Shown here one piece after another: positions 56,289 to 59,516 of a DNA stretch of 64,000 nucleotides. The first letter of the stretch is position 1. Every line of letters starts with the position of its first letter. A program made the position numbers and the translations under genes. The DNA comes from Cyclobacterium sp. SYSU L10401 (GTDB lineage: Bacteria; Bacteroidota; Bacteroidia; Cytophagales; Cyclobacteriaceae), in assembly GCF_010993705.1 (NCBI RefSeq), contig NZ_WOFO01000001.1, positions 710,132 through 774,131 of the forward strand, in the 5' to 3' direction. A model generated the notes under the pieces. The model did no database searches, was not told the origin of the DNA, and saw nothing but the letters and a program-made list of their open reading frames with translations.

Positions 56289-56349
56289 TTGTGGGCAGGC
56301 CATTTATTAACATTTGAAATTTATTTTCCCCGATCTTTGTTTTGGAAGC

Positions 56350-56928
56350 ATGCATAAAGTAGGGATAAAAAACATGGTTTGCCCCAGGTGTGTCATGGCT
56401 GTAGAGGGCTTACTAAAAAGCATGAAAGTGGATTTTGACCGGGTGGAGCTTGGTCAGGTGCTGTTTTCTCATACCCCTGAGGAATTATTTTTAAAGGCAT
56501 TTGAGGAGAAATTGGCGGTTTTGGGCTTTGCTCTTGCCAGATCAAGAGAATCGGTTTGGGTGGAAACGACTAAACTCGCTTTAATTGATTTGCTGGAAGG
56601 AGAAGGTGACCTAAAGCGAGAAGCACCTCTTTCAGAGTTACTATCCCAAAAGACAGGACTACCCTATAGCAGATTAAGTCAGCTTTTCAGTAGTTTTGAG
56701 GGTATGTCCATTGAACAATATTTTATCGGACTAAAGATAGAAAAGGCAAAGGAGTGGCTGAGTTATGAAACCCTGAATATCAGTGAAATCGCATGGAGTT
56801 TGGATTATAGTAGCGTGCAGCATTTCTCTGGCCAATTTAAAAAAGTCACGGGTATGACTCCCAGCCAATACAAAAAATCAAACGAAAAGTCCAGGATGTT
56901 TTTGGACCAGATAGGAGAAGCCCGCTAA
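56350..56928 (+). CDS. AraC-family regulator with N-terminal HMA-like metal-binding domain
   Basis: From ATG 56350 the protein has 192 residues. The N-terminal 75 residues look like a heavy-metal-associated domain with the CxxC motif MVCPRCVMAVEGLL. The C-terminal half is an AraC-type double helix-turn-helix (LNISEIAWSLDYSSVQHFSGQFKKVTGMTPSQYKK in parts). This suggests a regulator that senses a soft metal such as Cu, by inference. No copper ATPase or chaperone gene is adjacent, so its targets are elsewhere or it controls itself. Confidence 0.85.
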   Translation: MHKVGIKNMVCPRCVMAVEGLLKSMKVDFDRVELGQVLFSHTPEELFLKAFEEKLAVLGFALARSRESVWVETTKLALIDLLEGEGDLKREAPLSELLSQKTGLPYSRLSQLFSSFEGMSIEQYFIGLKIEKAKEWLSYETLNISEIAWSLDYSSVQHFSGQFKKVTGMTPSQYKKSNEKSRMFLDQIGEAR

Positions 56929-57544: not shown

Positions 57545-57916
57545 GGGAGATCCTTTTAAGTTTAGAAACAGCATTAAATGAATCAGGGTTGAATTGCTGA
57601 GAACACCAAATTGGCATTGAATTTTCATGTTGACAGGGTACAAAATTGCTTGAAATAATATGAAATACAAAATTACGGGCATAAACTTGCAGGAGTAGCT
57701 TGTTATTTCGCAAAGGTTCCTTTAATTTGTCTTTAAAGAGAAGGTTAGTCACCTGCTTCCTTAATATATTGATGAAAAATAATTAAGTTTGTAGATACCT
57801 GTATCCTTGAAGAGGTGGTTTGTTTAACTTTCTAAGGTCTTGACAATTTTTAATATTATATTGGAAAAAGAACTTGGTAAATTGTTTTATAAAAGATAAA
57901 AGCAAATAAAAATTCC
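57545..57916 (+). other. AT-rich divergent spacer upstream of the actin-like/bactofilin operon
   Basis: The 372 bp hold no convincing ORF. A possible -7 element TAAGTTTG lies at 57784-57791 without a good -33 partner at the normal distance. In the frame of the actin-like gene a stop codon (TAA) occurs at 57890-57892, so that gene cannot extend upstream. Confidence 0.5.
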
Positions 57917-58945
57917 ATGATAGAAGTAATAAAGTACCCCAGTGTATTGGAAAGTAGTAATCTTGAACTCAGGAACGTGGCAAAGGATTTGGTCTCAGGG
58001 CTAAAAATTTATCACGATAATATTGGTTACCTGGTTGGGGATTTGGCATTGTCCGAAGGTACATCACCTCACAGAAATATCAACAGTTCACCGGAAGAAA
58101 TCGATTACAGGATATTTTTGAAAGCCGGGCTGCTTTTGGCTTCCCAGAAGTTGGGCAGTCCCATTACTGTGACCACGGGTTTTCCTTTTTCTACATTTCA
58201 GGTATTTAAAGAGAATGCCTATCGCTTATTGGAAAATGAACATATTATAGAATACGACACCCAGACATTTGGTGGGGGAGGCCGCAAAAAAATGGCAGTA
58301 GAAGTGGATAGGGTAGCTGTAATTCCGGAAGTGGTAGGGTGTAGCATGGCCGTCCGGCAAATGTACAGCGATGCCCCTAAAAATTTCTTCATGATCAGTC
58401 TGGGCTATGGTACCATGGAGGCCATACTAAGTACAGAAGGGGGGCTGGTACAGCGGTCCAGTGTGTCTACATTTGGACTCCGATATGCCATTAACCTGAT
58501 TACCAGGGAACTTCAAAAAGACAATTACCTGGATCTGAAAACCGAACATCAGATCGATCAATACTTTAGTGAAGGTACAATTATATTAAACAGGAAGCGT
58601 TTAGATTTAAGGGAATTGCGCAAGCAGGTGATCATACAATATTACAATGACGTTATTTCACCTTCCATTAGGAAAGCTTTTTCAGATAGTGATTTTTCTA
58701 AATCCGCTGATCTTTATTTGGCCGGAGGAGGCGCCAATTATGTTGAATTGGTAAATCTTTTCAGGGATGAATTTGATGGCTTGTTGAATGTGCATGTTCC
58801 CGATGCTCCGGAACAAATGGCATCAATTGGTTATTGCTACAACAGTTTGGCCATTGGTGGAGGAGCTAAAGATAAGGCTGTGGGATTAGATCTGGGCAAT
58901 AGCTCAACTATCCTTACAACATTCAAGCAAGAAAAAGAAGAATAA
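57917..58945 (+). CDS. ParM/StbA-like actin homologue with circularly permuted motif order
   Basis: The 342-residue protein follows ParM-type actins except at its ends. It starts at what is normally the third strand (IKYPSV), then NIGYLVGDLAL (34-45), VTTGFPFSTF, VAVIPEVVGCSMA (E138, matching ParM E148), phosphate-2 MISLGYGTMEAIL (159-171, with S161 where Asp is expected) and adenosine motif LYLAGGGANYVEL (267-279). After the normal final helix comes GGAKDKAVGLDLGNSSTIL (315-333), a textbook phosphate-1 motif usually found at residue 5-15. The ATG is fixed by an upstream in-frame stop. It should be a cytoplasmic filament-forming ATPase; a bactofilin gene follows after 4 bp. Confidence 0.85.
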   Translation: MIEVIKYPSVLESSNLELRNVAKDLVSGLKIYHDNIGYLVGDLALSEGTSPHRNINSSPEEIDYRIFLKAGLLLASQKLGSPITVTTGFPFSTFQVFKENAYRLLENEHIIEYDTQTFGGGGRKKMAVEVDRVAVIPEVVGCSMAVRQMYSDAPKNFFMISLGYGTMEAILSTEGGLVQRSSVSTFGLRYAINLITRELQKDNYLDLKTEHQIDQYFSEGTIILNRKRLDLRELRKQVIIQYYNDVISPSIRKAFSDSDFSKSADLYLAGGGANYVELVNLFRDEFDGLLNVHVPDAPEQMASIGYCYNSLAIGGGAKDKAVGLDLGNSSTILTTFKQEKEE

Positions 58946-58949
58946 TCAT

Positions 58950-59516
58950 ATGAAATTTGGATCCAATAAGCAACAGAACGAAGAACCAAATGTAGGAAAA
59001 GTGACGGTTTTGTCACTGGGCTTTGAGCTAACAGGTGACATTATATCCAAAAGCGATATCCGCGCAGATGGTATATTAGTAGGGAGTATCCGTACCGATA
59101 AAAGAGTGGTAGTAGGAGAAAAAGCCTCCATTACCGGTGATATTATTGCAGAGGAAATCAGTATTAGTGGAGAAGTAGTCGGTGATTTGTACATCAAGGG
59201 AGAAACCACCATTTATGCGAATGCTAAGGTTTCCGGCAATATCAAAACAAGTTCCATTTTTATCCATAAGGGTGCCCAAATCAATAGCGGAATTCAGGTT
59301 TTGCAGACTCAGGAAGTAGAAGAAGCTTCCAAATCCAGCAAAATTAATTCGGTGAGCAGGGAGGAACTTTACTCCATGTTGGACGACAGGTCCGCCCCAA
59401 AGAGAAATAAAGAGGTGCCGGTGAAACCCATATCACAGCCCAAAACCAGGACTTACAATGATTCGTCCTCAGATAGTGAAGAAGACAATTCCATGGATTA
59501 TCCCCGGTCCTGGTAA
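58950..59516 (+). CDS. Bactofilin (polymer-forming cytoskeletal protein)
   Basis: The 188-residue protein has a central right-handed beta-helix of bactofilin type (about 22-110) with short hydrophobic turns: LTGDIISKSDIRADGILVG, RVVVGEKASITGDIIAEE, ISGEVVGDLYIKGETT and AKVSGNIKTSSIFIHKGA. A long polar C-terminal tail (about 115-188) contains SREELYSMLDDR and many Ser, Asp and Lys residues. Bactofilins polymerise without nucleotide, often at membranes. The gene is 4 bp downstream of the permuted actin homologue and ends at a strong terminator, so the two form a closed operon. Confidence 0.92.
   Translation: MKFGSNKQQNEEPNVGKVTVLSLGFELTGDIISKSDIRADGILVGSIRTDKRVVVGEKASITGDIIAEEISISGEVVGDLYIKGETTIYANAKVSGNIKTSSIFIHKGAQINSGIQVLQTQEVEEASKSSKINSVSREELYSMLDDRSAPKRNKEVPVKPISQPKTRTYNDSSSDSEEDNSMDYPRSW

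Follow-up and report, generated by a model that had tools for sequence, protein, structure and literature searches.

Ordinary actins start with a phosphate-binding hairpin, and the first acidic position of their phosphate-2 segment is usually an aspartate. ParM mutants altered in phosphate-2 hydrolyse poorly, a point given here as background and not used as evidence. In an excerpt of a kinase survey (PMC1079889), two motifs of the superfamily are described: PHOSPHATE 1 contacts Mg2+ via water, and PHOSPHATE 2 contacts the beta and gamma phosphates. The described proteins with which the present one is best compared are the ParM-type proteins, the archaeal actin homologue Ta0583, MreB, and the bacterial actins BeeR and CorM, the last of which is known here by its PDB title alone (9rmi). 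No description of a permuted actin was found in the titles and abstract openings of the open-licence literature that was searched, and an earlier account may exist elsewhere; the string 'permut' does not occur in PMC12645912 or PMC12270681. Among the listed papers that came up for both actin and permutation, those dealing with actins contain no permutation word, and one long review (PMC7203096) has a single instance of each.

We analysed a stretch of 64,000 nucleotides, referred to below as the window, from Cyclobacterium sp. SYSU L10401 (assembly GCF_010993705.1, contig NZ_WOFO01000001.1, positions 710,132-774,131 of the forward strand). An initial annotation of this DNA had proposed that one of its genes encodes an actin-like protein whose phosphate-1 motif (GLDLGNSS, residues 323-330) lies at the C-terminus and is absent from the N-terminus, while the VGDLA, IPE, phosphate-2 and adenosine segments occur in their usual order. 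Both parts of this description are borne out by our analysis (Table 1). The in-frame stop codon that had been said to close off the N-terminus is likewise present, and the open frame 5' of the actin ATG extends only eight codons. Four bases separate the stop codon of this gene from the ATG of a bactofilin gene. Elsewhere in the window, positions 56314-56928 encode a 204-aa protein that by eye has the look of an AraC-type helix-turn-helix protein with a CxxC metal-binding-like N-terminus.

Table 1. Positions in the window of the permuted actin-like gene, its conserved segments and the adjacent bactofilin gene
Feature	Position	Strand	Description and evidence
Permuted actin-like gene	57917..58945	+	342 aa plus stop; open reading frame, Pfam ALP_N 1.2e-10, Foldseek
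TAA stop codon, in frame, 5' of the ATG	57890..57892	+	Excludes an N-terminal extension; sequence
VGDLA segment, residues 40-44	58034..58048	+	G41, L43 and A44 in 68/68 members
Glu138 codon in the IPE segment (residues 136-138)	58328..58330	+	E in 68/68 members
Phosphate-2 segment, residues 157-168 (FFMISLGYGTME)	58385..58420	+	S161 instead of the usual first Asp
Adenosine-type GGG segment, residues 268-275	58718..58741	+	G270-G272 in 68/68 members
Relocated phosphate-1 hairpin codons, residues 321-336	58877..58924	+	Invariant residues, model strands, hairpin-only search
Bactofilin gene, 188 aa	58950..59516	+	Pfam PF04519 1.4e-21

Evidence for a circular permutation

The window protein is almost certainly a genuine circularly permuted actin-like protein, with the first hairpin moved to the C-terminus as the initial annotation had proposed. 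Four lines of evidence point in this direction: conservation across the family, a rotation test, a search with the hairpin alone (with modest E-values), and the fold. The sequence G-x-D-x-G-N-x-x-T is found near the C-terminus of all 68 distinct full-length members, that of the window included, and residues G323, D325, G327, N328 and T331 are invariant among them. A phosphate-1-like motif at or 5' of the aligned N-terminus occurs in 0/68 members with the strict and the relaxed pattern alike, and an upstream frame carrying such a hairpin, the alternative that had been raised for the window gene, is found in none of the 68. In an alignment of 35 rows, members share as little as 42% identity with the window protein.

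The hairpin codons are themselves under purifying selection. Compared pairwise with three relatives, the 20 codons 318-337 show 14-16 synonymous and 0-2 non-synonymous differences; the corresponding numbers for codons 1-317 are 147-160 and 20-34. A frameshift, a wrongly assigned start or an assembly error could in principle place the hairpin at the wrong end of a single gene. Such an artefact is effectively ruled out by the identical order in 68/68 distinct full-length members, by the invariant residues and by the selection acting on these codons, and the upstream in-frame stop also argues against it; we regard it as extraordinarily improbable.

The only Pfam model that matches the window protein above its cut-off is ALP_N (PF17989; 42.3 bits, cut-off 26.3). 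In this alignment protein residues 5-141 correspond to profile positions 19-148 of 148, and because the first 18 profile positions are left without a partner, the phosphate-1 stretch is missing from the N-terminus. When the last 22 residues are moved to the front, the score rises from 42.3 to 50.6 bits and coverage extends over positions 1-148. Rotation with three shuffled hairpins gives 42.6-43.4 bits, a gain of +0.3 to +1.1 compared with +8.3 for the real hairpin. Two other members behave in the same way: rotation lifts one from 34.1 to 42.2 bits and the other from 47.5 to 53.4.

We also searched 177,635 PDB sequences with a profile of the C-terminal hairpin alone (23 positions, made from 20 of 55 distinct hairpins). 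Up to E 10 there are two matches, the glycerol and diol dehydratase reactivases, and both fall at the N-terminus, on residues 6-17, with modest E-values of 0.032 and 0.13. We take these reactivases to be actin-fold ATPases and residues 6-17 to be their phosphate-1 site.

Comparison of whole profiles is informative in its alignment ends. Seven canonical actin-like proteins, six from phages and one from a plasmid, were combined in a profile of 338 positions. HHalign pairs native residues 4-315 with its positions 22-331, and the canonical N-terminus and the C-terminus of the query stay unmatched. After rotation the alignment runs from end to end (3-336 with 6-331), and one of five shuffled controls spanned the hairpin as well. 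As a test of permutation the HHalign score was rejected: the rotated profile, at 117.4, scores no higher than the native one (118.2), the one without the hairpin (119.2) or the five shuffled controls (114.9-120.4). Since this score does not separate the rotated profile from the controls, we use only the ends of the native alignment.

Sequence searches of the PDB with the whole profile, native or rotated, each give a single match below 0.001, to Dh-cParM1, and this match stops short of phosphate-1. The C-terminal hairpin matches the N-terminus of BiP, in the wrong order, in the native search and that of a DnaK, in the right order, in the rotated search, each with a score too weak to count alone. 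The whole-profile matches are still weak once the profile is rotated.

Predicted fold and active-site residues

An AlphaFold model computed from 35 sequences has a mean pLDDT of 89.4 and a pTM of 0.90; an earlier model from 18 close sequences had a pLDDT of 79.5. Residues 321-326 and 330-336 form strands in the 35-sequence model, and mean pLDDT is 94 for residues 321-330 and 88 for residues 331-340. The top ranks in Foldseek are held by pCBH ParM, Dh-cParM1, Ta0583 and CorM, with a probability of 1.00 and a query TM of 0.63-0.68 for the nine best chains, and structures of DnaK and Hsp70 are also among the matches. The C-terminal half of the protein resembles Pfam MreB-like_C below the cut-off of that model (25.3 against 27.8 bits). 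With an E limit of 1, the window protein has no match in NCBIfam and none to Pfam MreB_Mbl.

On this basis the window protein is placed as an actin-fold (ASKHA) protein with possible ATPase activity. The placement among the ASKHA ATPases is by fold only, because the phosphate-2 motif is degenerate, and the protein is not filed as a ParM because it departs from the canonical order with an N-terminal phosphate-1.

The N-terminal strand lies at the edge of the actin sheet, where it normally runs beside strand two of the first hairpin. In the model residues 2-8 are assigned as a strand, as expected with residues 330-336 alongside. Judging by the order of the strands, the register of the profile match and the confidence of the model, the C-terminal hairpin would most likely return to where it sits in other actins, with the N-terminal strand on one side and the remainder of subdomain IA on the other, and rebuild the nucleotide pocket. 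The chain would then end after the second strand of the hairpin and begin before the third strand, at a point where ordinary actins have a loop. If the permutation is correct, its presence in distant Bacteroidota families would mean that the actin fold tolerates a cut after the first hairpin. With both free ends then in subdomain IA, a tail attached there could sense the nucleotide. Effects of the permutation on filament contacts or nucleotide gating, which had also been suggested, are speculation.

The phosphate-2 segment occupies its normal place, as the initial annotation stated, but its first aspartate is replaced, which had passed unremarked. The segment reads S-L-G-Y-G-T-x-E, and position 161 is Ser in 63 members, Gly in four and Asn in one. 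In a locally gapless alignment with a canonical actin-like protein from a phage, S161 stands opposite the Asp, and the later acidic residue E168 is present in 68/68. Two other residues are kept throughout, the phosphate-1 aspartate D325 (68/68) and Glu138, which corresponds to the catalytic glutamate of ParM-type actins. Given the replaced phosphate-2 Asp and the invariance of D325 and Glu138, we expect that the protein probably binds ATP and hydrolyses it slowly or differently. With this Asp lost, the family offers a natural test of the residues that set filament turnover.

Distribution and bactofilin neighbours

Among named records, a protein search gave 16 loci (nine in Cyclobacterium, three in Lunatimonas, one each in Pleomorphovibrio and Lunatibacter, and two less precisely named), and these carry the label Cyclobacteriaceae, Bacteroidota. 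In the same search 19 of 148 genomes of the window's own family have a permuted actin. Profile searches gave 16/390 genomes in a sample of the order, all of them from the own family, 24/395 in a sample of the phylum, and 12/114 and 19/128 in two other orders; these samples overlap, and those of the own family, order and phylum contain the window's genome. Phylum-sample matches beyond the own family carry the label 'same phylum' and not 'same class'. The distribution is patchy.

Across the phylum sample and the two other orders, ten family labels include a match (f1, f36, f38, f41, f43, f54, f55, f64, f75 and f77). Full-length members come from nine of these, and f75 is represented by fragments only. 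With a minimum frame of 100 codons there are 71 distinct matching sequences, 68 full-length and three fragmentary. The fragments lie in two genomes of many contigs (L116 and L119 in G903, about 490 contigs; L130 in G977, about 520 contigs), and a shorter fragment in G825 is left uncounted. Three genomes have two permuted actins at distant places (L064 and L074 in G643, L063 and L075 in G687, L113 and L118 in G931).

Searches of other replicons gave little. No plasmid record matches the permuted actin, and of 21 pattern matches in viral contigs none was confirmed as a relative. Among phages, two records of one phage hold a partition protein that matches weakly, with 25% identity across residues 38-220. 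A search of 39 related genomes with PF17989 returned no match and also missed the window's own gene, and is therefore no evidence of absence.

To describe the gene neighbourhood we examined 26 loci: the window, five chosen among the 16 named ones, and 20 stretches in 19 other genomes. Gene calling recovered the actin in 24 of these, with a same-strand bactofilin at +1 or +2 in 18. Two more bactofilins were added by tblastn (L087, E 1.6e-10; L093, E 7.7e-12), so that a downstream bactofilin is present at 20/26 loci; as the loci are related, these 20 cannot be taken as independent cases. At L086 the bactofilin match is weak only (E 0.004), and at L079, L080, L085, L089 and L098 tblastn of the stretches taken finds none up to E 0.01. 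Seven families are represented among these loci, and six of them have the pairing (f1, f36, f41, f43, f54 and f55), the exception being f38.

Other neighbours recur at a few loci. L085 (at +1) and L089 (at -1), both with no bactofilin found in the stretch, have a neighbour from a common family that is beta-barrel-like by eye. At three f36 loci (L082, L090 and L092) a protein of 375-377 aa is encoded between actin and bactofilin, and the one at L082 is repetitive and TPR-like by eye.

The genome of the window encodes four bactofilins, including that at 58950-59516, and a separate MreB (421 bits). In a bactofilin tree the actin partners are not set off as a clade from the remaining bactofilins of this genome, and long branches make the tree uninformative.

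Possible functions and relation to described systems

The reading that we favour, and hold to be fairly probable, is that of a chromosomal permuted actin-like protein, possibly with slow turnover, that works with bactofilin. Slow or altered ATP hydrolysis would give a stable polymer or switch instead of one that turns over rapidly, and the protein would most likely position or organise a bactofilin scaffold at the cell envelope, separately from MreB. Filament formation, ATP binding, slow turnover and action on bactofilin are steps that we infer. The recurrent neighbour makes for a testable question, namely whether an actin organises bactofilins.

The protein might instead be a permuted actin-fold ATPase that forms no filaments and, as a monomer or dimer, serves as a nucleotide-dependent switch or loader for bactofilin, in the manner of actin-fold reactivases or chaperones. 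The only PDB matches of the hairpin are dehydratase reactivases, BiP and DnaK appear among the weak profile matches, DnaK and Hsp70 structures are among those found by Foldseek, and the phosphate-2 Asp is lost, all of which would suit such a switch. However, ParM-type proteins and Ta0583 rank highest in fold similarity, ALP_N stands alone above its Pfam cut-off, and Pfam reveals no extra substrate-binding domain within the 342 aa; we consider this alternative unlikely. Similarity to ALP_N and to the ParM fold would also be expected of a chromosomal partition protein related to the segregation systems of plasmids and phages, with a bactofilin next to it by chance. The weak match to a phage partition protein is in keeping with this idea, as are the chromosome-encoded ParMs reported in Desulfitobacterium hafniense in an excerpt of PMC12270681. 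Against it, the recurrent neighbour is a bactofilin, and the plasmid records and viral contigs produced no match and no confirmed relative, respectively. A role in partition therefore appears very unlikely to us.

The favoured reading, an actin-like protein working with bactofilin, has a bolder form, which we put forward as a doubtful but possible extension. Widespread natural permuted actins without the phosphate-2 Asp would form slow-turnover filaments with their chain ends beside the nucleotide pocket, and by templating a bactofilin scaffold would constitute the first actin-bactofilin composite cytoskeleton. Relative to the initial annotation, the bactofilin partner gene and the lost phosphate-2 aspartate are new.

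Several known systems share features with the window locus. Bactofilin genes cluster with M23 peptidases (eLife 2024, PMC10945521, in excerpt), and the window locus similarly combines a bactofilin with a recurrent partner gene. In contrast to those clusters, the partner in the window is a permuted actin, and the excerpt mentions no actin neighbour. BeeR (PMC11929497) and CorM (9rmi) resemble the window protein as recently described bacterial actins with moderate fold similarity, whereas BeeR is described as MamK-related with an N-terminal extension, and no permutation is described in the excerpted text. MreB shares the actin fold, the chromosomal location and, by inference, a role in cell shape. 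However, the window protein lacks an MreB_Mbl match, and the same genome encodes an MreB of its own.

Ta0583 (2fsj, 2fsk) is similar in fold (TM 0.64-0.72), and the C-terminal part of the window protein is MreB-like_C-like below the cut-off. The topology of the window protein is permuted relative to that of Ta0583, and identity in structural alignments is 15-18%. To the ParM-type proteins (ALP_N PF17989; pCBH ParM 6izr, Dh-cParM1 8x1i) it is related by fold (TM 0.63-0.68), by the ALP_N match above cut-off and by the order of the segments past the first hairpin. It differs from them in its C-terminal phosphate-1 hairpin, its replaced phosphate-2 Asp, its location on chromosomal contigs and its frequent bactofilin neighbour.
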